Part shown: positions 17,078 through 34,141 of the stretch, in pieces
Numbering within the stretch: position 1 is the first letter of the stretch
How the letters are laid out: every line of letters starts with the position of its first letter
NCBI RefSeq assembly: GCF_001677435.1
Contig: NZ_CP016268.1
Span: forward strand, 795,001-859,000
Length of the DNA stretch: 64,000 nt
Origin: Woeseia oceani
Lineage (GTDB): Bacteria > Pseudomonadota > Gammaproteobacteria > Steroidobacterales > Woeseiaceae
Reading direction: 5' to 3'
The notes under the pieces: generated by a model
The model's input: the letters and a program-made list of their open reading frames with translations, nothing else
Database searches by the model: none
Told to the model about the DNA's origin: nothing
Program-made: the position numbers and the translations under genes

Positions 17078-17261
17078 GTCTGCTGCCCGTCTGGCGGGGA
17101 AACTCAGGCTGGCGTGATGCATCCGGGTGTGAATGCCGCGGCCCTGTTGCGGCCACCGGGATGGTTCCCTCTGAAATAGCAATTTTTTGCGTCTTTGCCT
17201 ATCTTAGGGCCTGCTCGAACACCCCTAACTGTTGACGATAATCAGGACGATTCCAATAGCC

Positions 17262-19316
17262 ATGACTGGATTAACCCGCACTCCTGGAAAGCTGTTTTTG
17301 GGCTCGCTGTTGCTCACCGCCTGGTCAGCAAACTCACTCGCTGAAGATACTCTCGATGAGATCGTCGTTTCGGCAACCCGCCTTGACACTTCGATACGAG
17401 AAGCAGCCCGATCGGTGTCCCTGATTACCAAGGAACGGATTCAGAACGGCACGCAACAACTGGGTCTGGATGAGGCGCTTGCCGGGGTTCCCGGCCTGTA
17501 CATGCAGAACCGTTATAACTTTGCGCAGGACCTCCGGATTTCATTGCGCGGTTTCGGCGCACGCTCAGGCTTTGGTGTGCGTGGTGTCAAGATCATTATC
17601 GATGGGATACCGGAAACCTTGCCGGATGGTCAGGCGCAGGTTGATAGCATCGATCTCGGTTCCACAGACCGCATCGAGGTATTGCGCGGCCCGGCGTCAT
17701 CAATGTACGGCAACAGCTCTGGCGGCGTTATCGCCATTGAGAGCGAGCTTGGTAAAGGCCCGGCCTTTGTTGAAGCCAACGTGGGCGCAGGGGAATTGGG
17801 CTACAGCAAAGTGGGCATCAAGACGGGCGGCCGCGCCGGTGATGTCGACTACCTCTTCAACCTGTCGAGTCAGGACTTTGAAGGCTGGCGCGAACAATCA
17901 GACTCAGAGAGTCGTATGCTTAACGCCAAGCTGGGTGTGCCCATAGGCAGCAAGGACCGATTGACCGTGGCATTCAATCTGAGTGACCAGCCGACGGCGG
18001 ACGACCCTGGTGGTATCAATGCGGCGCAGGCAGCAGCCGACCCCCGATCTGCGCGTGACGTCAATCTGACCTTCGATTCCGGTGAGTCCATGGATCAGCA
18101 GCGGGTGGGCCTGGTCTATGAACGCGTGCGTGACACCGGAACGCTTTCTTTGCACAACTATTACCTTTGGCGTGACTTTGCCAACAAGCTTCCGTTCGGT
18201 AGTGGTGGCATCGTTGAGTTTGATCGCTTTGTCTATGGCGCCGGTCTGCAATACCGTCCCGTAGGCTGGTTGCCTGAGAGTTTTGATCTCGTCTTCGGCA
18301 TTGATCTTGACCGGCAGGACGACGACCGTCGCCGTTTCGACAATGAAAATGGTGAATACGGTGCGCTGTCCTTCGAGCAGCGGGAGCAAGTAGCAAGCAA
18401 TGCGGTTTTCGTCCAAACCCAGTACGCGCTCAACGAAATGTGGACGCTTAGTGGCGGGCTACGTTACGACGACATTACCTTTGACGTAAGCGATCAGTTT
18501 CTGGCCGATGGAGACGATACCGGCGAGGTCAGTTTCGATCAGCTAAGCCCGTCGTTAGGCGCCAATGCGGATTTCGGCAGCTATATCCTGTTCGCGTCAT
18601 GGAGCAGTTCTTTCGAAACGCCGACCACGACGGAGCTCGCGAACCCCGATACCAGCGGTGGATTCAATGCCGCGCTCGTCCCGCAACGAGCCGATAATTT
18701 TGAAATAGGGTTCAAGACGGGTAACGACGACCTGTATTTCGAGCTTGCTGCGTTCCAGATAGATATCAAAGACGAACTGGTACCTTTTGAGCTGGCCGGT
18801 TTTCCTGGTCGTACCTTCTACGCCAACGCAGGTCGGTCGGATCGGCGCGGAATCGAAACAGCCGTGTCCTGGAATCACGACAGTGGCTTCGGCATAGACG
18901 CCTCCTACACCTGGTCTGATTTTACGTACGATGAGTTCGTTGACGAGAACGGTACTGACTATGCCGGCAAGGAACTGCCGGGCTTGCCGGGACAGTTCGC
19001 TTATCTGGGTGTGCATTACCGGTCCATGTCGGGACTCGCGGCAACGCTTGAAGCGGTCTATTCCGGGGATCTCTACGCGGATAATGCGAATACGGCGGCG
19101 GTAGACGCCTACACAGTCAGCAACCTGCGACTGTACGACGAGTATGACTATGGTCGCTGGCAGATCCGACCGTACATCGGTATCAACAACCTGTTTAACG
19201 AGCGCTATAACAGCAATATCCGTATCAATGCATTCGGTGCGCGTTACTATGAGCCGGCTCCGGACCGGAATGTGTACCTTGGCGTTACGGTTAATTTTCA
19301 ACCGGGCGGTCGCTAG
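17262..19316 (+). CDS. TonB-dependent outer-membrane receptor
   Basis: A 684-residue receptor with a signal peptide, then a TonB box-like segment (DTLDEIVVSATR). A plug domain follows with RGFGARSGFGVRGVKI and RIEVLRGPASSMYGNSSGGVI, then a 22-strand-type barrel ending NVYLGVTVNFQPGGR. It would import a siderophore, cofactor or sugar with TonB energy; the ligand is not predictable. The ATG at 17262 is preferred to the TTG at 17232. Confidence 0.93.
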   Translation: MTGLTRTPGKLFLGSLLLTAWSANSLAEDTLDEIVVSATRLDTSIREAARSVSLITKERIQNGTQQLGLDEALAGVPGLYMQNRYNFAQDLRISLRGFGARSGFGVRGVKIIIDGIPETLPDGQAQVDSIDLGSTDRIEVLRGPASSMYGNSSGGVIAIESELGKGPAFVEANVGAGELGYSKVGIKTGGRAGDVDYLFNLSSQDFEGWREQSDSESRMLNAKLGVPIGSKDRLTVAFNLSDQPTADDPGGINAAQAAADPRSARDVNLTFDSGESMDQQRVGLVYERVRDTGTLSLHNYYLWRDFANKLPFGSGGIVEFDRFVYGAGLQYRPVGWLPESFDLVFGIDLDRQDDDRRRFDNENGEYGALSFEQREQVASNAVFVQTQYALNEMWTLSGGLRYDDITFDVSDQFLADGDDTGEVSFDQLSPSLGANADFGSYILFASWSSSFETPTTTELANPDTSGGFNAALVPQRADNFEIGFKTGNDDLYFELAAFQIDIKDELVPFELAGFPGRTFYANAGRSDRRGIETAVSWNHDSGFGIDASYTWSDFTYDEFVDENGTDYAGKELPGLPGQFAYLGVHYRSMSGLAATLEAVYSGDLYADNANTAAVDAYTVSNLRLYDEYDYGRWQIRPYIGINNLFNERYNSNIRINAFGARYYEPAPDRNVYLGVTVNFQPGGR

Positions 19317-19406: not shown

Positions 19407-21137
19407 ATGCGCAGGATGTACTTGAGCGGGATGGCTTTGTTGCTGGTTGCGTGTGGCAGTGAGTCCGATGTAGGCCAGCACCCGCAAGCTGACCTGCTGT
19501 TGATCAACGGCAATATCCGAACGGTTGATGATCAGCGCCCGCTGGTCCAGGCCCTCGCCGTTAGCGGTGATCGCATCGCGGCCCTCGGCAGCAACGAAGC
19601 ATTGTCTGCCTGGCGCGGCGAGCAAACCCAGGTCATCGATTTGCAAGGCAAGACGGCGATACCGGGGTTCATCGAAGGCCACGGTCACTACACATCGTTC
19701 GGCGATTCGCTGATGACGCTCGACTTCCGTTATGCGGACAGTTTCGATGCCATAGTTGCGATGGTCGCTGATGCCGCGAAGGAAACGCCGGCCGGCGAAT
19801 GGATCGTCGGGCGAGGCTGGCATCAGGACAAGTGGAAGACGCAGCCAGTACCGTCAGTGGAAGGGCTGCCGTTGCGCGACAAGCTCAGCGCCGCAACACC
19901 GGATCATCCGGTGATGCTCATACATACCAGCGGACATGCTGTATTCGTCAATCAGAAAGCGATGACGCTTGTGGAGCTCGACGGCAAGACGGTGCCGCCG
20001 GATGGCGGTGAAATTGTCCTGACGGACGACGGCCGGCCTATAGGCATGATGCGCGAGTCAGCCCAGGATCTGTTTCGTGCCGCCTTCGCGCGCCACCAGT
20101 CGTTGCGTTCGAACGCAGTAATTGAAGCGGAAATGCGCCGCAAGGTGAAACTTGCCGGTGAAGAATCATTGCGCCACGGCATTACGTCGTTTCAGGATCT
20201 CGGCACGCGATTCGCGGAAGTGGATCTGCTGAAGACCATGGCCGATGAAGCCAACTTGCCGGTTCGGTTGTGGATGGCTTTTGAAGAGCAAGCCGCTGAC
20301 ATGCAGGGTCGTCTCGCCGATTACCGCATGATCGGCTATGGCAATAACTTTCTGACCGTGCGCGCCATCGGCGAAAAAGTACTCGACGGCGCGCTCGGGA
20401 CGCACGGTGGTTGGTTGCTGGAACCCTACACGGATTTGCCGCGCAGTCATGGTCTCAATGTGGTGCCGATTGCAGAGATCGAAGCCTCCGCGCGCCTCGC
20501 CATGCAGCACGACTACCAGCTCGCAATACAGGGTATCGGCGACCGCGCCTATCGGGAGTTGTTGAACATTTACGCGGCTGAGTTTGCTCGTCATCCGGAC
20601 AAGACCGACCTGCGTTGGCGTATCGAACACGCCCAGGTCATTCACCCCGTCGATGTGCAGCGCACGGTTGAGCTGGATGTTATTCCGGCGGTCCAGGGCA
20701 TTTTCGCCTGCTCGGATGGCCCTTGGGTTGAGGAGCGGCTCGGTCCGCAACGCACAGCGGAGCGTGGCTATATATTCAATACGCTCTATGAAGCTGGTGC
20801 GGTCCCGACCAACGGCACTGACCCACCCGTGGATGAGATCAGCCCTATTGCCAGCTTCCATTGTTCGGTTACGCGGCAACTGCCGGATGGCAGTTACTTC
20901 CAGCCGGACGAAGTGTATACGCGAGAAGTCGCGCTTTACTCGTACACAATGGGCAACGCTATTGCCGCTTTCGAGGACGGTATCAAAGGTTCCCTCACGC
21001 CCGGCAAACTGGCCGACATAACTGTTCTGTCACAGGATCTCATTACTGTGCCGGATGACGACATCATGGATACAGAAATCGTGATGACCATCCTCGGCGG
21101 TAAAGTTGTCTATCAGGACGGCGAGATTCAACCGTAG
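19407..21137 (+). CDS. Amidohydrolase family lipoprotein (YtcJ-like)
   Basis: A 576-residue protein with a lipoprotein signal peptide (lipobox LLVACG) and an amidohydrolase-3 core. The metal-binding motif is FIEGHGHYTSFG. Later His residues include HTSGHAVF and RIEHAQVIH, and the metal-site Asp occurs near TNGTDPPVDE. The family hydrolyses C-N bonds of amides or cyclic amides. Export as a lipoprotein is typical of proteobacterial members. It follows the TonB receptor by ~90 bp in the same direction, so the substrate may be what the receptor imports; that is inference. Confidence 0.9.
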   Translation: MRRMYLSGMALLLVACGSESDVGQHPQADLLLINGNIRTVDDQRPLVQALAVSGDRIAALGSNEALSAWRGEQTQVIDLQGKTAIPGFIEGHGHYTSFGDSLMTLDFRYADSFDAIVAMVADAAKETPAGEWIVGRGWHQDKWKTQPVPSVEGLPLRDKLSAATPDHPVMLIHTSGHAVFVNQKAMTLVELDGKTVPPDGGEIVLTDDGRPIGMMRESAQDLFRAAFARHQSLRSNAVIEAEMRRKVKLAGEESLRHGITSFQDLGTRFAEVDLLKTMADEANLPVRLWMAFEEQAADMQGRLADYRMIGYGNNFLTVRAIGEKVLDGALGTHGGWLLEPYTDLPRSHGLNVVPIAEIEASARLAMQHDYQLAIQGIGDRAYRELLNIYAAEFARHPDKTDLRWRIEHAQVIHPVDVQRTVELDVIPAVQGIFACSDGPWVEERLGPQRTAERGYIFNTLYEAGAVPTNGTDPPVDEISPIASFHCSVTRQLPDGSYFQPDEVYTREVALYSYTMGNAIAAFEDGIKGSLTPGKLADITVLSQDLITVPDDDIMDTEIVMTILGGKVVYQDGEIQP

Positions 21138-23105: not shown

Positions 23106-23140
23106 ATAAAAAGGGCCCTACCGATTGCCGGTAAGGCCCT
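23106..23140 (-). terminator. Intrinsic terminator of the amine-oxidase operon
   Basis: On the minus strand a stem of about 11 bp with one mismatch (AGGGCC-TTACC against GGTAGGGCCCT, loop about 5 nt) is followed by five T residues. It lies 26 bp past the RidA-like stop. Confidence 0.8.
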
Positions 23141-23165
23141 GGATACAGCCACTGGCCGTTACAGT

Positions 23166-23663
23166 TTAGTCGTCGCTGCGCGCAAGAATGATTTCGATTT
23201 CAACCAGCATGCCTTCACCGGCGAGGCCTGCGACCTGCACCGCCGAACGAGCCGGCAGATTGGGTTGCTCGGCCGTGCCGAAATACTTTGTATAGGCGCG
23301 CATGAAACCGGCGAAGTCCATCTTGCCGCCGAGCTCTTCATCACCAACGAGAAACACGGTCATCTTCACGGTATCGCCGAAATCAAGCCCGAGATTCTCG
23401 AGCGAAGCTTCCATGCGCTTGAACACGCTTAACGATTGCGCTTCTGTATCGCCCCAGTACTCGCGACTACCGCGCTCTGCATCGGGGTTAACAGGGCCGG
23501 GTACCGTGCCACTGTGATAGACGATCGTGGTATTGGCGGAGGTTTCGACTGCCTGAGCAATAGGGAATGTCGAGTTATTCGGCAACGGGTGGCGGGTGAC
23601 ATCGCCGGCATTGGCGCATGCGCCTGCCAACAATAGTAATCCAACGAGTGCTGATTGCTTCAT
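23166..23663 (-). CDS. Exported RidA-family imine/enamine deaminase
   Basis: A 165-residue protein with an N-terminal signal sequence (about residues 1-20, LLLLAGACANAG; the Cys could be lipidated, but the lipobox has Ala at -3). It is followed by a RidA/YjgF fold domain. The conserved Arg lies in PARSAVQVAGL, and the trailing VEIEIILAR is the family C-terminus. RidA proteins hydrolyse reactive imines and enamines released by amine- or amino-acid-oxidising flavoenzymes, and most are cytoplasmic. The start at 23663 is chosen because GGAAGAGA precedes it and the signal begins there. It is the last gene of the operon with the amine oxidase and cytochrome c4, which gives it an obvious substrate source. 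Confidence 0.88.
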   Translation of the reverse strand: MKQSALVGLLLLAGACANAGDVTRHPLPNNSTFPIAQAVETSANTTIVYHSGTVPGPVNPDAERGSREYWGDTEAQSLSVFKRMEASLENLGLDFGDTVKMTVFLVGDEELGGKMDFAGFMRAYTKYFGTAEQPNLPARSAVQVAGLAGEGMLVEIEIILARSDD

Positions 23664-23703
23664 GGTGGTCTCTTCCTTCACGATGGGTAATAGGGTGGAT
23701 GCG

Positions 23704-24333
23704 TTATTTGCGCAAGCTGGCAATATAGCGAACGACATCTTTCATTGCTTGTTCATCGGCCAGTAGTCCTGCAGCGGCCTGCATTTGCATGCCGTAAGCA
23801 TCTTCGGGGTTGTTGCCGCGCACGCCGCTCTTAAAGTTCTTGAGTTGAGTCAACAGGTACCAGTCATTTAAGCCGCTAAGCGGTGGGCTCGCAAGCAATT
23901 CGTTACCGCTCGCATCCGCTTTGTGGCACGCCGCACAACTGCTGTACAACGCTTTGCCCCGGTTGATGTCGCCCTGAATGGTTGTTGCCGGTGGCGCCGA
24001 GCTTACACTGCGAACGTAGGTAGCTACCTGGTTGATTTCCTTTTCGCTAAGCACCTCAGCCATGGGGCGCATTTCCTGGCCGTAGGTATCGTCCGGGTGC
24101 GCACCACGCCAACCGTTCTTGAATGATTGCAACTGTCGGCTGATGTACCAGCGCTCCATACCGGACAAGCGCGGCGCCTGGATGACGCTGTTGCCGCCCA
24201 TTTGAATACCGTGGCAAACGGTGCAATAGACGAATTCATCGGCGGGCACTACATTCTCGTCGGCGATTACTGAGGCCGGATAACTTGCACCAAGGGTTAG
24301 CAACAGTGCTGTCAGAACTGAAATCCGTTTCAT
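23704..24333 (-). CDS. Dihaem cytochrome c4-type protein
   Basis: A 209-residue periplasmic protein with a signal peptide and two homologous cytochrome c domains. Haem motifs are CTVCH (about residue 37) and CAACH (about residue 133). Each is followed by the c4 pattern of APRLSGMERWYISRQLQSFKNGWRG or PPLSGLNDWYLLTQLKNFKSGVRG and a distal Met (in MRPMAEVL and MQMQAAAG). c4 cytochromes carry electrons to terminal oxidases. It starts 4 bp after the amine oxidase stop and is most likely its electron acceptor. Confidence 0.93.
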   Translation of the reverse strand: MKRISVLTALLLTLGASYPASVIADENVVPADEFVYCTVCHGIQMGGNSVIQAPRLSGMERWYISRQLQSFKNGWRGAHPDDTYGQEMRPMAEVLSEKEINQVATYVRSVSSAPPATTIQGDINRGKALYSSCAACHKADASGNELLASPPLSGLNDWYLLTQLKNFKSGVRGNNPEDAYGMQMQAAAGLLADEQAMKDVVRYIASLRK

Positions 24334-24337
24334 CGTC

Positions 24338-25918
24338 TTACCCCTTTGCCGTCGACATTTCAGCTCGCACCCGGCTATCGAGATCCTGTAACGCGTTTGT
24401 TGCCGAGGCAAATGCACCTTCCTGCCAACTGGAGTGGAAGCTGATCTGATCGCCAATCATGTAATGCCTGCCAGCAGGTGCCTGGATGGTTTTGAATTTC
24501 GTTTCAGCATCATCGACACCGCGGAAGGAGTTGCCGCAACCCATCATGTGATTCATGCGGCCCCAGGGCACGCTGATGCCGGTATCTATATAGTCTGTAT
24601 ACCCCGGGTGCACCTTCTCGCCCATGCGGGCCGCTGCTTTGATGCGATCCGACGTGCTCATCCGTTCGAAACGATTTGACTGTTCCGGGCCAAACGCATA
24701 CGCCGCAAGCACAACGCCTTTCTGTTTGAAGATGCCGTGCGATGGGTACCAGATCTGGTTGATGTCCTGATTGGTGTAAGAGATGCCACCGTAGATATTT
24801 TCGCGCTCCCAGAAGCGCTCTTTCATCTGCAGGCCGATTTTGAAGAAATTGCCCCGGCGCATTTCGGTCAGTGCAGCGACGTAGTCTTTTGGCAAGTTGT
24901 TCGGTATGCCATTGATAAAATGCGATGGGATGCTGTTGAAACAGTAGTCGGCCTCGATCTTGCGTCGTCGTCCCTTGTGGTTGTAGACAATATCAACACC
25001 ATCTTCGCGCAACTGTATGGACTGAACCTGTGCATTAAGCGTGACGTCGGTTCGCATATTGCGCAAAAAGCCTTTGACGAGATTGTCCATGCCGCCTTTC
25101 GGAGTCATCAGAGGCGCGGCCCAGTCTTCGGCGTGATTGAAGTGCATGCCGCGTTGCCAAAAGCTGCTTTTCAGAATTTCGGAAAAGTCGAGTGTCCCTT
25201 TCAGCTCGCCGTGTTTGAGAAAACCACCGGATGCATAGCCGGCACGCGCAGAGCCTTTGTACAACGCGTTGTCATTGAGATCGCCGTAGTTCTTTATGAA
25301 CGCGAGTAGTTGCTCTTTTTCTTCGTCTGAAATCGGCTGCTCGAACTGATTGGCGTCTACTGCTTTATGCAGTAGTTCCGACATGAAGCCGCGCGCATCT
25401 GTCGTGTATTCGCGAACCCGGACACGTTTGCCGCCAAAGGCGTTGTCATCCTGTGTCCAGGCCAGACGGTTATCGTTGGCCATGATGTCGAGCTCAACAC
25501 CGAGCTCGCGGCAATAGTGCATGGCACGTTGGTGATGACCGGGCAAGCGAGCAGGGCCACCGTTGAAATACAGGTGCGGTTCGTCATCAAAATTAACGGT
25601 CTGGGCGTTACCCATTTCGTCGACAACATCACCGTGTCGGTAGGTAACATTGCGGCCACCTGCGCGGTTTGATGCCTCAAGTACAGTTACGTCGTAGCCT
25701 GCGCGTTCAAGCTCATACGCCGATGTCAGACCGGCGATGCCTGCACCGAGTATCACTACGCTTTTCTTGTTTCGGCCGACGTGCAGAAGATCGAGATAGG
25801 GCATTTCGCCCGTATCGGGCATCAGACCCATTGCTCTGCTGGTCTGATAAACAGCAGTAGCACCACCTACGGCACCGACAATGTTAAGAAAGTGCCGTCG
25901 TGATATTTGATCAGTCAT
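24338..25918 (-). CDS. Tat-exported FAD-dependent amine oxidase family protein
   Basis: A 526-residue flavoprotein. It begins with a twin-arginine signal (SRRHFLN at residues 6-12, then a hydrophobic stretch). The FAD dinucleotide motif is GAGIAGLTSAYELERAGYDV and EASNRAGGRN. The C-terminal FAD-contact segment is GDQISFHSSWQEGAFAS. This layout is that of the flavin-containing amine/L-amino-acid oxidase superfamily. Tat export means it folds with FAD before secretion and works in the periplasm. Because a dihaem cytochrome c follows within 4 bp, it may act as a dehydrogenase passing electrons to the cytochrome instead of to O2. The substrate is unknown. Confidence 0.9.
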   Translation of the reverse strand: MTDQISRRHFLNIVGAVGGATAVYQTSRAMGLMPDTGEMPYLDLLHVGRNKKSVVILGAGIAGLTSAYELERAGYDVTVLEASNRAGGRNVTYRHGDVVDEMGNAQTVNFDDEPHLYFNGGPARLPGHHQRAMHYCRELGVELDIMANDNRLAWTQDDNAFGGKRVRVREYTTDARGFMSELLHKAVDANQFEQPISDEEKEQLLAFIKNYGDLNDNALYKGSARAGYASGGFLKHGELKGTLDFSEILKSSFWQRGMHFNHAEDWAAPLMTPKGGMDNLVKGFLRNMRTDVTLNAQVQSIQLREDGVDIVYNHKGRRRKIEADYCFNSIPSHFINGIPNNLPKDYVAALTEMRRGNFFKIGLQMKERFWERENIYGGISYTNQDINQIWYPSHGIFKQKGVVLAAYAFGPEQSNRFERMSTSDRIKAAARMGEKVHPGYTDYIDTGISVPWGRMNHMMGCGNSFRGVDDAETKFKTIQAPAGRHYMIGDQISFHSSWQEGAFASATNALQDLDSRVRAEMSTAKG

Positions 25919-26394
25919 ATGTGGTCTTCTTTCTTTGATGCGAATCTGCGCAAGTACTTGTGCCATAGCCGCAGGCGTAAGAATCAGGTGCCAGCACCGA
26001 GTGTTGGTGTGTACGGAACACGATAAGTTCCGCGCTGGATATGACTGGTCCGGTGTCGGCTTTGCAGAGATCGCAGCGACAACCGGCTAGCTTTGCTACC
26101 GCCATTGCGAACTCAAAGTACTCCCCCCTATGAAGCAACGATCAGCGTTAATCTGCGACGACTAAGCAAGACCGTGCAGGTATTAGGCATGATAACCCGG
26201 CGGATTTCAACGGCAGCAAGAGAGCCGAATAAGCCTATAAATTACGGCTGAAATCAACATGCCCGGTAGTCGCACAAGGCAACGTACAGACATCGCTTGG
26301 TGCGTTTGCAACCGTGTTTGATGTCCGGTTGTTGCTTGCGAAAGTAATGTTATGGTGAGTCTTTGCTGCGCAGGGCCGGCGGTATGCCTGATGT
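25919..26394. other. Intergenic region upstream of the amine-oxidase operon
   Basis: About 475 bp holding the promoter region of the leftward amine-oxidase operon. One short inverted repeat CGGAAC / GTTCCG is visible near 26018-26036. No supported gene or RNA. Confidence 0.4.
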
Positions 26395-26748
26395 CTAGAG
26401 TCCGGTTTCGCTCAACAAAAACAGGTCAGTCAAAAGGGCCCGCAGATGGATCGACGCATTCAGATTATCGACCAGTTCTGAACTGATTTTCTGCTGCGAG
26501 AGTACCAGTGATATCGCCGCCAATGACTTCCTCGCGTCTTCAATGGTTATTACGGAAAAGTCGTGACTGGAATCGGCAAGCTGTTCACAAATGTTCGCTG
26601 CCGCTTCGCTCATTCCGGTCAGTATTGTGCGGACCTCGGACGGGGCGGATTCGCCCTCGTCAGTGTCACGGCCTTGCGCGGCGTACGCCAGCAGAAATTC
26701 GTAGCCAGATTCGACGACATCGATCTGGTCATTTAGTGTGTTACTCAC
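26395..26748 (-). CDS. Hypothetical protein
   Basis: A 117-residue, mostly helical acidic soluble protein without Cys pairs, membrane segments or a motif I recognise. It lies ~50 bp downstream of the cytochrome b gene in the same direction and could be the last gene of the molybdenum-hydroxylase operon. Support is position plus uninterrupted frame only. Confidence 0.5.
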   Translation of the reverse strand: MSNTLNDQIDVVESGYEFLLAYAAQGRDTDEGESAPSEVRTILTGMSEAAANICEQLADSSHDFSVITIEDARKSLAAISLVLSQQKISSELVDNLNASIHLRALLTDLFLLSETGL

Positions 26749-26795: not shown

Positions 26796-27554
26796 TCAGG
26801 CTGACTCGTCAGGCGACCAGCGACTGGCGTCATGATTGGCATCAAGTTCGTCTCTTGAGACCCAACCTTTCAGCATTGAGCGCAGGTAAAACAGCTTCTC
26901 CGGACGAACACCGAAATACACGTGCAACGAGATCGTTGCGACGAGTAGCAATGTTGACAGTCCGTGTATGAAAAACAACCAACCGAGGGTCGCTTCCGAC
27001 AGGGAGTTGGTGCGGTTCCACCACGGTGTGTCGATCATCGCGAACAGGCCAATGCCGGTTGCGATAACAGCCAGTGTGAGAACGGTTACGCCGAGGTGCA
27101 TGCACTTCTGAGCCAGCGAATACTTGCCGGGTTTGACAGTGTCGTCGAACGGTTCTTTCAGGTCGCGGGGGCTGATCCACATGGACTTGAGGTCCTGCCA
27201 GAACAGCGAGCGCACAATGTGGAAAACCACAACCACCGTGAGCACGATGCCAGCCACCCAGTGGATGGTCAGCCATGAAAACTCGATGCCAATAATGGGC
27301 AAGATGCCCGTGATCAACAGTACGAATATGCTCGCAGCCATGACCCAGTGAAACAAGCGGTCGATGCCGTCATGGCGTTTTAGCCGCGGACCATCGCTGG
27401 ACGGTTTGCGTGGTTTTTTCCGGGCGGCCTTGTATACCGCGTGTACCGCGATAAACAGGAACGACACGATAAGAATGACCCAAAGCAGATCCCAGGATAC
27501 CCCCAGCAAAACTTCCCGGCCCCAGACGTCGTTCTTGAATGTTGCGATATCCAT
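26796..27554 (-). CDS. Cytochrome b561/b-type membrane subunit
   Basis: A 252-residue membrane protein with about five helices. Paired His suit b-haem ligation: RLFHWVMAAS, LTIHWVAGI, VFHIVRSLF, FFIHGLSTL and ISLHVYFGV. The pattern resembles formate dehydrogenase gamma / b561 subunits that pass electrons between quinone and a periplasmic enzyme. The ATG at 27554 lies 3 bp after the stop of the FAD subunit gene. This ties it to the molybdenum hydroxylase as a membrane electron acceptor or donor. Confidence 0.88.
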   Translation of the reverse strand: MDIATFKNDVWGREVLLGVSWDLLWVILIVSFLFIAVHAVYKAARKKPRKPSSDGPRLKRHDGIDRLFHWVMAASIFVLLITGILPIIGIEFSWLTIHWVAGIVLTVVVVFHIVRSLFWQDLKSMWISPRDLKEPFDDTVKPGKYSLAQKCMHLGVTVLTLAVIATGIGLFAMIDTPWWNRTNSLSEATLGWLFFIHGLSTLLLVATISLHVYFGVRPEKLFYLRSMLKGWVSRDELDANHDASRWSPDESA

Positions 27555-27557
27555 CAA

Positions 27558-28547
27558 TTAGCCCCGCATCGCCCGCCGGACGAGATTTTCCATCAACGGC
27601 ATTTTGAAGTGATTGTAATTAAGCGGTCTGGCGCCTTGTGCTGCCAACGGCGCAAGCTTGTCGCCCGTCGCATCGCCCAGTGACTGGCCGCGCGCGGCTT
27701 GCTCCACCTTGTTTAGCCGGTAAGGTACAGCGGCAACTCCGCCGCAAACAAACCGGCATTCGCCAATGACGTTGTCGCTGACGTCCATGGCGACCGCGAT
27801 GCTGACCAGGGCGAAGTCCCAGACATTGCGATCCGCCACTTTCTCGAAATAGAAGCGTTTGCCGGCCCACTTGCTGGGCAGTCGGACAGCGGCCAGAATT
27901 TCACCGGGTTCCAGCGAGGTCATGCGTGTGATGTGTGTTGCCGGGCCGGCGAAAAATTTGCTGGCCGGCACCGTGCGTTCACCATCGACGCTGTTGATGA
28001 CCATGGTTGCATCGAGCGCGACCATCGCGGTGGCGGTGTCCGACGGGCTCACCGCTACGCATCGACTGGCGCCGAACAATGCGTGCTCGCGATTCATGCC
28101 CTCCGGACTGTCCGCGTAACAAAGGTTGCCGCCTGCCCGATAACAGGAGAGGCCGCGGCGGTAATACCAGCAGCGCGTGTCCTGCACGAGGTTGCCACCG
28201 AGCGTGCCGACATTGCGAATCTGTGGGCTGGCAACACGTGACGCGGCATCGACCAGCAAACGGTAGCGTTCCTTCAGCAGCGGGTTACGGATAATGTCGC
28301 GTAACGTCGTTGCAGCACCGATCTCAATGCCATCGGCCGTCTCGCGAATACCCTTCAAGGCCTCGATGCCGTTCAGGTCAATCATCGCTTGCGGGTTCTT
28401 GGCGCGGTCTTTCAGCCAGCCGTAGGTATCCTGGCCGCCGCCGAGGAGCCAGCCTTGTTCGCCCAGTCGGTCAGCCAGTTCCAGCGCGTCGTCGAGTTCC
28501 GCGGGCTGGTAGAGCTGTACATTGGGCATGACATCGAAAGAAGCCAT
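27558..28547 (-). CDS. FAD-binding subunit of a PaoB-like molybdenum hydroxylase
   Basis: A 329-residue member of the xanthine dehydrogenase FAD-subunit family. The FAD loop motifs LLGGGQDTYG and NVGTLGGNLVQD are present. Between residues ~125 and 165 it has four Cys (in RCWYYRRGLSC, GGNLCYA and GASRCVAV). This is the arrangement that binds an additional 4Fe-4S cluster in PaoB of E. coli and in HcrB. The start at 28547 overlaps nothing and follows the catalytic-subunit stop by 7 bp. It passes electrons from the 2Fe-2S subunit onward, here probably to the adjacent cytochrome b. Confidence 0.9.
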   Translation of the reverse strand: MASFDVMPNVQLYQPAELDDALELADRLGEQGWLLGGGQDTYGWLKDRAKNPQAMIDLNGIEALKGIRETADGIEIGAATTLRDIIRNPLLKERYRLLVDAASRVASPQIRNVGTLGGNLVQDTRCWYYRRGLSCYRAGGNLCYADSPEGMNREHALFGASRCVAVSPSDTATAMVALDATMVINSVDGERTVPASKFFAGPATHITRMTSLEPGEILAAVRLPSKWAGKRFYFEKVADRNVWDFALVSIAVAMDVSDNVIGECRFVCGGVAAVPYRLNKVEQAARGQSLGDATGDKLAPLAAQGARPLNYNHFKMPLMENLVRRAMRG

Positions 28548-28554
28548 ATCTACC

Positions 28555-30966
28555 TCAGAAGTTGTTGGTCTGTAACGGCTTGAACGACTGATCACGTCCC
28601 GCTACGTAGTTCAGAATCATGTCAGGACTAACGGGTGTGCGACCGAATACATGTCCGTCGAGCGCATCCGCAATCGCCGAGGTCAGTGCGGCCACTGAGC
28701 AGCCCATTGCCGGCTCGCCAATGCCGCGGGCGCCGAACGGGCTTTGTGGATCCGGAATATCAACAGCGCCAGTCTTTATCTCTGACGGTGTATCCAGGTA
28801 GGAAGGAATCCGGCACTGGTGATAGCCGACGTTGGCCGGCAAGCCGTTTTGCGGGTCATAGACATGACGTTCAAGTCCGGCCATTCCCATGCCCCAAACA
28901 GCACCGCCGCGCATCTGTGCAGCGAGCCCTTGCGGATGCACGACTTTGCCGCACTCGGCAATGCCGACGTAATCGAGAATCTCGTATTTGCCGGTTTCGA
29001 GGTCGAGTTCAATCTCAGCGAACGCGACCGCGAGGCCGGGTATCGTGCCTTCCTGGTGCAGCTTGTCTTTGGCGACGCCGATGAGGCCGGTGCCGGCAAT
29101 GTTTTGCACGGCCCGTACCGTGATCTCATGAATGTCATCGGGATAGGTTTCGCCACTGAGCGCGCCGCCGAGCTGGACGGCTTTCGCTGCCGCTTCCGCG
29201 TAGCTCATGCCGCTGGCCGCATTGCTGGCGAGAAACACGCGCTGGCCATCGATGTCGTAGTCGTCAGCACTGCCACCGAGTGTGGCGGCGGCGACTTGCT
29301 TGAGTTTATCGACGGCATCCATTGCGGCCACGTAATTGGCCCGTTGATGGGTGAAGCTGGTGTTGCTGCCAGCCTGGTAGCTGCTCCACGGCAGGTTCGC
29401 TTCCGTCGAGCCGTGGTGAATGACGCAATCTTCCCAGTTGCATTTCAGCACTTCTGCGGCGGCCCGGGTCGTAGAGGCATAGCTGTACGTACCCAGATTG
29501 CCAACGCCACTGTGCAGATGAATCTTGCCATCCGGCGTTATCCGCACCAGGCCGTCGTAGCCCTTGTCGCCAGCCGAGTGATAACCCTGGCCGACGCCGA
29601 GGCCGCGAATCTTGCTGCCGTTCTTGCGCGGCTTGTATTTCTTGGCCGCCCAGTCGAACATCTCGGCACCCATTTCCAGCGCTTCTTTCATGTATGCGCT
29701 GGTGATCGAATGCTGGTCGGCGTACACGGTTGTTGCATTGTTCGCGGCATTGACCTTGCGCAACTCAACGCGGTCCATGTTGAGCTGCTTGGCAGCCTTG
29801 TCCATGATCGGTGCCATCACGGCGGCAATCTGGTTTTGGCCAGGCCCGCGTTGCGCGCCCCGTGGCGTAGTGTTGGTCAGTACCGGCAATCCGCGGAAGC
29901 GCATGGACAGCGGGTCGTAAACGAGCGATACCGCACCGGCAGCCGACGAACCGTCGCCGCCAGTCGCATTGGGTCCGATGTCTTCAATAATGAACATGTC
30001 GGCGGCGGTCATGCGACCGTCGGCGGCAAAACCAATTTTCATCCAGCCCTGGAAGCCCACGCGCGCCGAGCCTACGTAATATTCCTGTTCCCGGGTGATG
30101 CGCAACTGCACCGGTCGACCGATCTTCTTCGAGAACCAGCCGGGCAGAGCAGCCATCGGGTAGGCGCCGATCTTGGAGCCGAAGCCGCCACCGGTGTGCT
30201 CACTGACCAGTACGACATCTTTCATTTCGACTTCGAGCAGGCGCGCGAGACCGGGCATCCAGAAGCTCTGGCTTTGTGCGGAGCCGTACACATAACAGGT
30301 TCCGTTTTGCCAGTAAGCCATGGCGGTACGGGGTTCCATGCTCATGTGCGCATAGCCGGTCGTGACAAACGGCTCTTCGATGATTACCGACGCTTCAGCA
30401 AAACCTTTGTCGACATCGCCGTAAGACCATTCGTTCGCGTGCTCGCCGGTCGGTTCTTTACCGGCGCGGAATTCGGCGATTTGTTCCGGGGTCCATTTGA
30501 TATTGCGAAACCCGGAGCCTTCACGGGAGCGCACATAGACGTTGCCTTCTTCGCGGGCGTCCGGCCCGTTCTCGATCAGGCTGTCGAGCGGGTCTACCGC
30601 GAACGGCAGCGGTTCGATGGTTACCTTGATGGCCGCCAACGCATTCTCAGCCGTGGTTTCATCTTCTGCCGCCACCGCCAGGATCGGGTCGCCAACGTAC
30701 ACCGGCGTGTTCGTCAGGATGGCCGCGTTCGGCGCTTCCATGACGGGGACGTCGTCGGCGGTCAGTATGCCGATAACACCGGGCATGTTTTCCGCAGCGC
30801 TGGTGTCTATGTTGGTGACCCGGCCGTGGGCCATCGGGCTGGTGTACAACCGGGCGTAAACCATGCCTTCCGCGCGGAAGTCCTCGGCGTACTTGGCTTT
30901 GCCGGTGACTTTGCCCTTGATGTCTGGCGGCGTGAAGTCCTTGCCTATGTGTTTGTAGTCGCTCAT
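28555..30966 (-). CDS. Molybdopterin-binding catalytic subunit of a xanthine dehydrogenase-family enzyme
   Basis: An 803-residue catalytic subunit. The GGGFGSK motif (in SEHTGGGFGSKIG), TTPRGAQRGPGQNQ and the C-terminal GARGIGEPAMG, whose Glu is the catalytic base, are all present. Such enzymes hydroxylate aldehydes or N-heterocycles at a molybdenum centre. PaoC-type proteins oxidise aromatic aldehydes; the substrate here is not determinable. Its ATG overlaps the 2Fe-2S subunit stop by one base (TGATG). It has no signal of its own and would be co-exported with the Tat-tagged subunit. Confidence 0.92.
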   Translation of the reverse strand: MSDYKHIGKDFTPPDIKGKVTGKAKYAEDFRAEGMVYARLYTSPMAHGRVTNIDTSAAENMPGVIGILTADDVPVMEAPNAAILTNTPVYVGDPILAVAAEDETTAENALAAIKVTIEPLPFAVDPLDSLIENGPDAREEGNVYVRSREGSGFRNIKWTPEQIAEFRAGKEPTGEHANEWSYGDVDKGFAEASVIIEEPFVTTGYAHMSMEPRTAMAYWQNGTCYVYGSAQSQSFWMPGLARLLEVEMKDVVLVSEHTGGGFGSKIGAYPMAALPGWFSKKIGRPVQLRITREQEYYVGSARVGFQGWMKIGFAADGRMTAADMFIIEDIGPNATGGDGSSAAGAVSLVYDPLSMRFRGLPVLTNTTPRGAQRGPGQNQIAAVMAPIMDKAAKQLNMDRVELRKVNAANNATTVYADQHSITSAYMKEALEMGAEMFDWAAKKYKPRKNGSKIRGLGVGQGYHSAGDKGYDGLVRITPDGKIHLHSGVGNLGTYSYASTTRAAAEVLKCNWEDCVIHHGSTEANLPWSSYQAGSNTSFTHQRANYVAAMDAVDKLKQVAAATLGGSADDYDIDGQRVFLASNAASGMSYAEAAAKAVQLGGALSGETYPDDIHEITVRAVQNIAGTGLIGVAKDKLHQEGTIPGLAVAFAEIELDLETGKYEILDYVGIAECGKVVHPQGLAAQMRGGAVWGMGMAGLERHVYDPQNGLPANVGYHQCRIPSYLDTPSEIKTGAVDIPDPQSPFGARGIGEPAMGCSVAALTSAIADALDGHVFGRTPVSPDMILNYVAGRDQSFKPLQTNNF

Positions 30967-31550
30967 CAGCCATTCTCCGCGGCGCGCATCACGCCGTTGA
31001 GGTAGTTGTCATACGCGCCGCAACGGCAAAGGTTGCCGGACAGTGCCTGGCGCACTTCCTCGCGACTCGGATGCGGATTCTCGTTCAGGAGCGCGACAGC
31101 CGACATGACCTGCCCGGGGGTGCAAAATCCGCACTGCGGTGCAAGTTCCTGAATAAAGGCCTGTTGCACCGGATGCAAGGTGCCATCGGCGCCAGCAACG
31201 CCTTCGATGGTTTGTAACTGCCGCGAACCGACGCTGTGCGTTAGCGTCGAGCAGGAGTAGTTGGTTACGCCGTCAATGATGACCGTGCAGGCGCCGCATT
31301 CGCCGCGATTACAGCCGATTTTGGTGCCCGTCAGGCCCAGCTTGTAACGCAGCGTGTACGCCAGCGTTTCCTGCGGCATGACGTCGACGCGTCGCGTCTT
31401 GCCGTTCACGTTCAGGGAAATCAGGCGTTCTACCGTGCCTTGGGGTCGGTTCTGGGCCATGGCCGCATGAACACCTGCGTTGGTCGCTGCAGCGGCGCTG
31501 GAGGCAATGACTGCCTTGATAAAGCGCCGGCGTGAAAGTCTCGGATTCAC
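30966..31550 (-). CDS. Tat-exported 2Fe-2S subunit of the molybdenum hydroxylase
   Basis: A 194-residue protein with a Tat signal (SRRRFIKAV near the N-terminus, then a hydrophobic Ala-rich stretch). Two 2Fe-2S clusters follow: the plant-type site CNRGECGACTV with a later Cys, and the helical-domain site CGFCTPGQ with GNLCRCGAY. It is the PaoA equivalent. No ATG lies close to the signal; the GTG at 31550, with AGG upstream, gives a proper Tat leader. The frame stays open to 31691. First gene of the operon. Confidence 0.9.
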   Translation of the reverse strand: MNPRLSRRRFIKAVIASSAAAATNAGVHAAMAQNRPQGTVERLISLNVNGKTRRVDVMPQETLAYTLRYKLGLTGTKIGCNRGECGACTVIIDGVTNYSCSTLTHSVGSRQLQTIEGVAGADGTLHPVQQAFIQELAPQCGFCTPGQVMSAVALLNENPHPSREEVRQALSGNLCRCGAYDNYLNGVMRAAENG

Positions 31551-31978
31551 TGCCTTGATACCTGCCTGTCTGTCGCGAAAGAAAAAGGGACGGATGTCGG
31601 CGGACAGTCCGTATTCTGCGATCTGGTGCTGCCTGGTACTGGCGTTCCCCCCGCCGGCTTCTCGATGCTGCACGTGCTGGTGAATGAACACAAGCGACGC
31701 GCATTATCCTCACTAATTTTCACCCGTCTGGCCAACAATGCAACCGTTGCCGGGGAAACCGTGAGATTTTCCGGGCCGCCGGCGCTCAGCGCGGCATGGA
31801 ACGCCACACGCGGACCGGAATGACAACGGGGCGTTCTTGATAGTGCTCGTGCCGCATCGTCACGGCTGTCTGCTGCGCCAGGTGGCCAGCAATTCCGGCC
31901 GATGCGCGTAACTTGCTCCAGCAAGTCGATTGGCCGCCTACGCAAGTATGCGCGTCGCAATTGCGTCTCCGATGAACT
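31551..31978. other. Intergenic region upstream of the molybdenum-hydroxylase operon
   Basis: About 430 bp. Leftward frames in it (for example 31547-31960) have no family-like features or start signals. I see no RNA gene. It should hold the promoter of the operon. Confidence 0.4.
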
Positions 31979-32773: not shown

Positions 32774-33958
32774 TTACAGCTTGTCAGCAGGCCACGGTGT
32801 GCCTTGATCCATGACCGTTACGGGCTTCATGCCCTGGTAGCTGAACTTCTGCAGGCGTTTGCCTTCGTAAGTTTCCGTTGTGTAGATGTTGCCCTTCGAG
32901 TCAGTCGCGATGCCGTGTACCGCGAAGAACTGGCCCGGATTGCGGCCGCCGTCACCGAAATTGGTGAGTATTTCCAGCGACTCGCGTTCGATGATGAAGA
33001 TTTTCCGGTTTGTGCCGTCGGCGAGGTAAATGTAGGTCTGGTCGTCGTCAGCCGAGAAGGAGATATCCCACACCGAGCCATCGCCGAGGCTGTTGGGCTT
33101 GACGAAGAGCTCACGAACAAATGTACCGTCGGTCTTGAACACTTGTAGCCGGTTGTTGACCCGGTCACAAACGTAGACGAGGCCGTCATGCGAAGGCTGA
33201 GCGCAATGCACCGGGTTGCGGAACTGTTGCGCGGGTTCCTGTCCCGGGCGGAACGGGCCGAGGTTGGTGTCGTCCGGCTCGTTGCCGTAAGCGCCCCAAT
33301 AGCGTTTTAGGGCGCCGGTATCAGCATCCAGTACGGCGACGCGTTTGTTGCGGTAGCCGTCCGCCACATAGGCTTCATTCGCCGATGGATCAAACGATAT
33401 TTCAGCCACACTGCCGAAGTTTTTCGGGTCATGACTGTCGGTCGGTGATCCGGGCGTGCCGTATTGCGCGATGAACTTGCCGTCGCGAGTGAACTTCAGA
33501 ATGTGTGAGTCCGTTGGGCCGTTGCCGCCGATCCAGATGTTGTCTTTGTGATCGACAGTGATGCCATGGTTCGACGTTGGCCAGTCGTATCCTTCGTTCG
33601 GTCCGCCCCAGTGATTCACCAGGTTCCCCGCCGGGTCGAACTCGAGAACATTCGGTGCCGGTATGCAGCAATCTGCTTTGACCGGGTCGGTCGCGGCGCC
33701 GATTTCAGTACGTTCATTGAACGTGTCACGTCGGTGAATGATGTAGACGTGATCACGCGAATCAACCGCGAGTCCGATGGTTGCGCCAAGGATCCAGTGG
33801 TTCGGCAACGGCTTCGGCCAGAAAGGATCGACGACGAATGACGGTGCTTGCTTGGTCTGCGCGGTTGCGCTGTTGTCCAGTGCTTTCTGTCCGCAGCCGA
33901 GTGCAACGATCATGGCGATCACTGCAGTAGCAGCGTAAACGTGTTTCTTTGTCATCAT
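32774..33958 (-). CDS. NHL-repeat six-bladed beta-propeller lipoprotein (PAL-like)
   Basis: A 394-residue lipoprotein (signal peptide with lipobox ALGC) whose body is a chain of NHL-type blades. Recognisable repeats include GLAVDSRDHVYIIHR, GITVDHKDNIWIGG, ISFDPSANEAYVADG and GIATDSKGNIYTTET. The overall plan resembles the propeller of peptidyl-alpha-hydroxyglycine alpha-amidating lyase and related bacterial proteins. The function of bacterial copies is unclear. GGGGGGAG lies just upstream of two adjacent ATGs (33958 and 33955). Confidence 0.85.
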   Translation of the reverse strand: MMTKKHVYAATAVIAMIVALGCGQKALDNSATAQTKQAPSFVVDPFWPKPLPNHWILGATIGLAVDSRDHVYIIHRRDTFNERTEIGAATDPVKADCCIPAPNVLEFDPAGNLVNHWGGPNEGYDWPTSNHGITVDHKDNIWIGGNGPTDSHILKFTRDGKFIAQYGTPGSPTDSHDPKNFGSVAEISFDPSANEAYVADGYRNKRVAVLDADTGALKRYWGAYGNEPDDTNLGPFRPGQEPAQQFRNPVHCAQPSHDGLVYVCDRVNNRLQVFKTDGTFVRELFVKPNSLGDGSVWDISFSADDDQTYIYLADGTNRKIFIIERESLEILTNFGDGGRNPGQFFAVHGIATDSKGNIYTTETYEGKRLQKFSYQGMKPVTVMDQGTPWPADKL

Positions 33959-34141
33959 CCGTGCTCCCCCCCCAAAATAGACCGTGACGATGTGCAGCGA
34001 CAGCGTTGCTGTCAAGCGCAGCATAATACTATCGCGCCGGAAGCACAGTGCCACCTGAATCAGATGAAATCATTTATCGCGGCAGTAAATCCCGCTATTG
34101 TCGGCGACCATTGATCGGCAGAGAGGAAGGTTACCATTGCA

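Follow-up and report, generated by a model that had tools for sequence, protein, structure and literature searches.

What use would a bacterium have for a putative imine-hydrolysing protein outside the cytoplasm? The question is raised by a three-gene operon in a stretch of 64,000 nucleotides from Woeseia oceani (contig NZ_CP016268.1, positions 795,001 to 859,000), here called the window and numbered from its first letter. On the minus strand, three open reading frames (ORFs) run from a flavoenzyme through a dihaem c4-type cytochrome to a protein of the Rid family, and then to a terminator-like hairpin. A first-pass annotation made from the letters alone had taken this trio for a periplasmic pathway that respires amines without releasing peroxide. 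The answer favoured here, with moderate confidence, is a periplasmic L-amino-acid dehydrogenase module: the flavoenzyme would pass electrons to the dihaem cytochrome and so to a terminal oxidase, and the Rid protein would hydrolyse the imino acid. The elements that can be read directly from the sequence are the gene order, the Tat- and signal-peptide-type N-termini, the residues typical of L-amino-acid oxidases (LAAOs), the dihaem cytochrome, the conservation of the set and the apparent match in export status between the flavoenzyme and its Rid partner.

The three genes and their products

All parts named by the first-pass annotation are present as it described them. The flavoenzyme gene (24338-25918, minus strand) stops 4 bp before the cytochrome gene (23704-24333, minus strand), and 40 bp separate the latter from the Rid gene (23166-23663, minus strand); LAAO-like, cytochrome c and Rid genes thus lie side by side on one strand, the arrangement known elsewhere as lao-cccA-ridA. 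Directly past the last stop codon lies the hairpin (23112-23140, minus strand), with 13 pairs, 8 of them G-C, and a T-rich tail. Terminator-like sites as a class are not rare in this region (seven between 22.9 and 26.9 kb, against 4.6 ± 2.1 in shuffled sequence), and this one has the longest stem of the seven. Promoter-like sites were not found in the same interval (0, against 2.7 ± 1.8 in shuffles). Upstream, 476 bp separate the flavoenzyme start from the next gene. The spacing and the hairpin would fit co-transcription of the trio.

Read from the ATG at 25918, the flavoenzyme has 526 aa; a second in-frame ATG lies at 25966. Its N-terminus, MTDQISRRHFLNIVGAVGG, displays to the eye a twin-arginine translocation (Tat)-type SRRxFL motif (SRRHFL) and a hydrophobic core; for the 526-aa form the Tat-type N-terminus is SRRHFLNIVGAVGG. 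The protein matches the Amino_oxidase family (PF01593, E = 2e-37). Among the PDB matches listed, the best is the LAAO of Rhodococcus opacus (2jae; E = 4.3e-82, residues 45-520), and the next, reconstructed and venom LAAOs, stand at 5.7e-31. A structure model built from 20 relatives (predicted local distance difference test, pLDDT, 81) superposes on 2jae with Z = 49.9 over 468 residues, compared with up to 34.4 for venom LAAOs and 31.4 for human monoamine oxidase A. R124, Y407 and K360 align with an Arg, a Tyr and a Lys of 2jae that are presumably catalytic residues of that enzyme. In an alignment of 153 rows (146 distinct sequences), R124 is invariant, Y407 is kept in 151 (Phe in two) and K360 in 150 (Arg in three); G58, G60 and E81, of the Rossmann motif that binds flavin adenine dinucleotide (FAD), are kept in all 153.

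In LAAOs, Arg and Tyr contact the substrate carboxyl (PMC9331233, PMC9814856). Because 2jae is nearest and the carboxylate-binding pair is kept, the likeliest substrate would be an alpha-amino acid, not a simple amine. In the earlier label 'FAD amine oxidase', the FAD-binding Amino_oxidase fold stands and an amine is the less likely substrate: on sequence and model together, the enzyme is better read as LAAO-like than as a generic amine oxidase. A supposed loss of the flavin-side lysine (I379, against Lys in venom LAAOs) was also considered and dropped. The alignment puts the conserved lysine at K360, and therefore no claim about O2 reactivity is drawn from it. NicA2, a FAD enzyme taken up below, was not among the 60 of 99 PDB sequences listed for the flavoenzyme, and nothing is concluded from this.

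The cytochrome (209 aa) begins with an N-terminal signal peptide and carries two CxxCH motifs in two class I c-type domains (PF00034, 1.3e-21, in two stretches). Its nearest solved structure is cytochrome c4 (1etp, E = 1.4e-15), with which it shares the two c-type domains, the two haem motifs and a size of about 20 kDa.

The third product (165 aa; PF01042, E = 1.7e-16) opens with a hydrophobic, signal-peptide-like N-terminus (MKQSALVGLLLLAGACANAGDV), as Rids of relatives also do. In the PDB it is matched best by PSPTO3006 (1e-34) and PFL1385 (2.3e-34), with the next-best Rid protein at 1.8e-8. R139, within PARSAVQV, falls in the alignment on the Arg of PART of these two Rid3 proteins, and is presumably the equivalent of Arg105 of RidA. 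Both PFL_1385 and PSPTO_3006 deaminate the imines that amino acid oxidase makes from Leu, Gln, Phe, Met and His, and also iminoarginine (PMC5619798). By sequence the first-pass 'RidA' lies, among the PDB proteins, closest to Rid3, and is better called Rid3-like. A type II (lipoprotein) signal, suggested by AGAC, was rejected; five near relatives (L018-L021 and L025) have AQA, AQA, AHA, ATA and ANA before DV at this position, and because of them type I cleavage appears likelier. Three of the six Rid-domain proteins of the same genome have export-like N-termini, namely the window protein, a lipoprotein-like one (L100, genome positions 41544-41873) and a Tat-like one (L103, 3487840-3488229). Exported Rid domains therefore seem not to be limited to this operon, and the premise that RidA proteins are normally cytoplasmic needs qualifying.

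Conservation and export status among relatives

Does the trio hold together elsewhere? A scan of a genome collection gave 157 relatives, of which the best 80 (L018-L097) were kept; the nearest named one is a Woeseia record (L040), with 72% identity in the flavoenzyme and 82% in Rid. In 62 of the 80 a c4-type cytochrome, recognised by profile, follows on the same strand at a distance of at most 1 kb; in 72 one lies anywhere in the fetched stretch. Rid lies within 3 kb in 61. The search for the three-gene set that the first-pass annotation had proposed thus finds both partners near the flavoenzyme in 55 of 80 relatives, which is more than chance.

Some loci are arranged otherwise. In seven (L044, L046, L048, L056, L059, L083 and L095) there is no Rid, and a c4-type gene on the opposite strand lies some 5.4-5.7 kb upstream; in L059, TonB-receptor-like and regulator-like ORFs stand between it and the flavoenzyme. 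In two related genomes (L007:3068-4225 and L008:327-1550) no stop codon parts the cytochrome frame from the Rid frame, and the joined frame holds an internal ATG, preceded by CAGGAG, and an internal signal peptide; this is either a fusion or a translation restart at the internal ATG. The own genome holds two further flavoenzymes, L002 and L003 (35 and 37% identity to the window enzyme), with neither a c4-type cytochrome nor Rid in the examined stretches (at least 5 kb each side, in L016 and L017). In these stretches the enzymes, Tat-type and LAAO-like, are encoded at L016:5109-6737 and L017:6119-7765, the first with a lipobox-like GMAGC.

Further afield, a class-wide search at E = 1e-100, too strict a cut-off, returned only the window itself among 274 genomes. 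An order-level search at 1e-60 found a relative in 9 of 97 genomes, and at 1e-70 a relative turned up in 27 of 398 genomes of the phylum, in 18 of 198 from one family (with L139 as query) and in 16 of 289 from another class. These further genomes contribute 55 deduplicated loci, 38 with Rid and 25 with a CxxCH ORF. Many of their cytochromes are monohaem; a scan of two of them gave matches to PF13442 and PF00034. The CxxCH pattern misses some cytochromes (L118, L124 and L132 have a right-sized gap before Rid), so labels of 'none' based on it overstate absence. A quick tree of 121 flavoenzymes, built without repeats and without the even-numbered loci L046 to L096, divides with support 100 into 60 and 61 rows. 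The 60-row side has 52 c4-type cytochromes, one labelled monohaem, four 'none' and three 'unknown'; the 61-row side has 21 monohaem, one labelled c4, 37 'none' and two 'unknown'. The two odd labels are doubtful: in the L039 ORF the letters of the first haem site are ambiguous, and in L127 a monohaem ORF follows downstream. In the more distant part of the family, then, a monohaem cytochrome c replaces c4; therefore the place of the cytochrome is kept and its type changes.

Export status was called for 99 linked Rid proteins (61 and 38 from the two sets) by a hydrophobicity rule and one inspection. Ten rows are left out of this count: L114 (the window); the repeats L141, L144, L145, L148 and L157; L002 and L003, with no Rid; and L007 and L008, whose Rids both look exported. 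L009-L015 lie outside both sets, and L115 and L079 share one flavoenzyme and were both counted. By the automatic rule 92 of the 99 count as exported. Of these, 67 are type-I-like and 11 lipobox-like, and the other 14 have a distal hydrophobic segment (at least 60 residues before the Rid domain). Ten of these 14 are membrane-anchor-like, and four (L033, L035, L036 and L038) appear to have a signal peptide and then an extra segment. Long transmembrane-like N-terminal extensions, seemingly membrane anchors, are seen in L050, L051, L053, L054, L060, L061, L063, L073, L081 and L091. Inspection adds the Rid of L023 (MKTIQSLVVIAALAL), giving 93 exported-looking proteins; two (L058 and L097) have no usable start in frame and stay undecided.

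The remaining four (L139, L140, L146 and L147) look cytoplasmic, beginning with MSDSIQRTS right before the domain. Their flavoenzymes have two acidic residues in the Tat core (GGEQAAKDALAAL and the like); other flavoenzymes with a recognised Tat motif have at most one, and the six motif-less rows have no Rid. Out to about 1.5 kb from these four flavoenzymes, the pattern scan, which misses some cytochromes, found none. The four form one clade with support 100 in the 121-row tree, near groups that keep both signals. Joint loss of the two export signals is the outcome expected if Rid must sit where the flavoenzyme works. The shared extracytoplasmic compartment supposed by the first-pass annotation gains support to this extent: most of the flavoenzymes examined have a Tat-type motif, and an export signal appears, by rule and inspection, to be present in 93 of the 99 linked Rids.

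Electron acceptor, substrate and the wider locus

How would such a module work? In the periplasm, the Tat-exported flavoenzyme would turn L-amino acids into imino acids by oxidation at the alpha-C-N bond. Single electrons would then leave the reduced flavin for the dihaem c4 cytochrome, and from there reach a terminal oxidase. In that compartment too, the Rid3-like protein, likewise exported, would accelerate the hydrolysis of the released imino acid to ammonium and 2-oxo acid. What we infer here is the substrate class, the electron path, the activity of Rid, the oxidase used and the physiological purpose. Flavin-dependent amine oxidases (FAOs) with Tat signals that use cytochrome c are established (PMC12224317, PMC9396064), and an adjacent cytochrome c gene is a published predictor of dehydrogenase function in the FAO superfamily (PMC12224317). 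The window enzyme has both the Tat-type motif and the cytochrome neighbour, 4 bp away.

An alternative supposes a periplasmic LAAO that uses O2 and makes peroxide, with the cytochrome there for peroxide removal or for unrelated respiration, and Rid removing reactive imines. Several observations speak for it, or otherwise weigh against the dehydrogenase reading. The structure nearest to the flavoenzyme is that of an oxidase: the R. opacus LAAO is so classed, and sequence cannot tell dehydrogenase from oxidase (PMC12224317). Published Tat FAOs that lack a neighbouring cytochrome mostly acted as oxidases, and the published c4-linked FAOs were slow in solution with their own cytochromes, which they reduced at 290-2700 per M per s against 160-590 for O2, about two- to fivefold; the authors suggest that c4 is membrane-bound in the cell (PMC12224317). 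Nine loci of one family (L136 and L149-L156) pair a Tat-type FAO with an exported Rid, and no cytochrome was found within 1.5 kb. Of the 19 relatives without Rid, five have too little downstream sequence (L022, L026, L031, L087 and L088), and in the other 14 of the 80 Rid was not found; eight lack a c4-type cytochrome anywhere, three of them with short stretches (L028, L031 and L087), and in the fetched stretches of the other five (L043, L055, L068, L072 and L093) none was found. The four cytoplasmic-looking Rids form one clade, and therefore count as one event of co-loss, not four. The export calls themselves rest on a hydrophobicity rule rather than a trained predictor. Lastly, the model leaves a 117-aa protein and a molybdenum enzyme next to the operon unexplained.

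On the other side, a cytochrome gene beside the flavoenzyme gene is kept on both sides of the deep tree split, though its type differs, and published Tat FAOs with an adjacent cytochrome are mostly poor oxidases; one of them, from B. anthina, had both activities (PMC12224317). An O2-using oxidase is on this evidence unlikely. The phrase 'without releasing peroxide' of the first-pass annotation nonetheless goes too far as written, as it cannot be read from sequence and the published c4-linked enzymes are slow with their cytochromes in solution.

The genes around the operon raise the matter of the substrate again. Upstream, all on the minus strand and syntenic in near relatives, lie the 117-aa helical protein (26395-26748; unmatched in both Pfam and NCBIfam; a predicted structure of five helices, pLDDT 82; in 8 of the 80 loci); a cytochrome b561-type membrane protein (26796-27557; PF01292, 1.7e-19; in seven); and three subunits of a xanthine-dehydrogenase-family enzyme, each in six loci: the FAD subunit (27558-28595; PF00941, 9.5e-48), the molybdenum-cofactor subunit (28555-30966; PF02738 and PF20256) and the 2Fe-2S subunit (30966-31691; PF01799, 8.5e-32), which has a Tat-type SRRRFIK motif. 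Beyond them is an NHL-repeat protein (32774-34054, minus strand; PF01436), with a related ORF in eight loci. Converging on the operon from the other side, on the plus strand, are a TonB-dependent receptor (17232-19316; PF00593, 1.8e-47; in six loci) and an amidohydrolase with a lipoprotein-like N-terminus (19407-21137; PF07969, 7.3e-85; in four). All these counts are lower bounds, as contig ends cut several stretches. The operon lies downstream of the 2Fe-2S, molybdenum and FAD subunits and cytochrome b561 in L018-L021, L024 and L025; the stretch of L040 starts at cytochrome b561; and in L034, L037 and L039 the NHL-repeat ORF is present without the molybdenum genes. In another part of the tree, 19 of the 80 loci have a symporter of the SDF family (glutamate/dicarboxylate type) between the cytochrome and Rid, and a twentieth (L064) has the symporter without Rid; the family assignment (PF00375, 9e-97) comes from L045 (L045:8437-9849) alone. 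The symporter counts in favour of the dehydrogenase module.

Such neighbours would suit a flavoenzyme whose substrate is one particular amine or modified amino acid rather than the common amino acids, in one pathway with the molybdenum enzyme, the amidohydrolase and the TonB receptor. In near relatives the molybdenum-enzyme genes stand upstream (six to seven of 80) and the receptor and amidohydrolase converge downstream. The nearest PDB entry of the molybdenum subunit is 4-hydroxybenzoyl-CoA reductase, followed by 6-hydroxypseudooxynicotine dehydrogenase, an enzyme of the nicotine pathway, and then by PaoC. This reading must reckon with the carboxylate-binding Arg/Tyr pair, which is invariant or nearly so, with the 476 bp that set the operon apart from the upstream genes, and with the most part of the 80 relatives, which lack these neighbours. 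Even L023 and L027, of the same supported flavoenzyme clade, have none of them in the examined stretches. It is accordingly judged improbable.

A broader proposal builds on the dehydrogenase reading, and is offered tentatively, as possible rather than probable. Rid3-type proteins linked to FAOs of this kind may be dedicated imino-acid hydrolases of the envelope (soluble, lipoprotein or membrane-tethered) that follow cytochrome-linked L-amino-acid dehydrogenases into their compartment. In the subclade of the window, the module would be coupled to a molybdenum oxidoreductase of periplasmic type that brings a cytochrome b561 of its own. Together they would take an amino acid in two steps, within the envelope, to a more oxidised product and feed the respiratory chain at two points.

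Relation to known systems

A Rid protein whose export status matches that of one flavoenzyme would have a concrete, testable job, for part of a family in which, as of 2017, no phenotype had been tied to loss of any Rid1-7 protein (PMC5619798). The findings also suggest that another group of enzymes named 'amino acid oxidases' may belong with the respiratory dehydrogenases, and bear on the place at which bacteria of sea and soil convert free amino acids to ammonium and keto acids.

The trio itself was known before. Clustering of Rid and FAO genes was reported in 2015 (PMC4433059), and the same three genes were described in 2016 as lao-cccA-ridA of Gluconacetobacter diazotrophicus, with a Tat-type signal on the LAAO, which is predicted to be periplasmic (PMC5053998). 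That paper proposes that cytochrome c and RidA assist the LAAO, and calls the order conserved in Caulobacter crescentus and Xanthomonas; it differs in that the role studied was indole-3-acetic acid synthesis, and in that its available text gives neither RidA export nor haem count. A RidA-family gene of a cytoplasmic chitin-monomer pathway (PMC9537276) was set aside as a parallel, since no FAD enzyme or cytochrome partner is named in the part available.

The dehydrogenases NicA2, Pnao and those of FAO clades 1-3 combine a Tat-type FAO with an adjacent cytochrome c, as the window does, and the clade 1 cytochromes are dihaem c4-type proteins of about 20 kDa, like that of the window (PMC12224317). 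The sampling there was made around NicA2, and RidA is nowhere mentioned in the paper; the window enzyme is nearest the R. opacus LAAO. The c4-type clade of LAAO-like enzymes described here may or may not be clade 1. With 2jae itself, the window enzyme shares the fold and the residues that bind the substrate carboxylate. The R. opacus LAAO is not known to have a Tat signal, or a cytochrome or Rid partner gene.

The closest solved-structure relatives of the window Rid, PFL_1385 and PSPTO_3006, are active imine deaminases; the paper on these Rid3 proteins contains neither 'signal' nor 'periplasm' (PMC5619798). In the printed alignment the N-terminus of PFL_1385 resembles a signal peptide, and the PSPTO_3006-like Rids of L139 and L140 represent the form without one. 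For an exported Rid in print, the papers listed by the searches yielded only the periplasmic LAO1 of Chlamydomonas with its LAO2/RIDA partner (PMC10805672), an extracytoplasmic LAAO paired with Rid in clustered genes, as in the window. That system differs in being eukaryotic and in making peroxide, and no cytochrome is named in the algal cluster in the text available. Regular export of FAO-linked bacterial Rids, and its loss together with the FAO signal, were not found among those listed papers. Already known, then, are the gene trio, the FAOs that use cytochrome c and the periplasmic LAAO/RIDA pair of Chlamydomonas; added here are the matching of Rid export to its enzyme, the c4-type clade of LAAO-like enzymes and the linked molybdenum-enzyme locus in near relatives.

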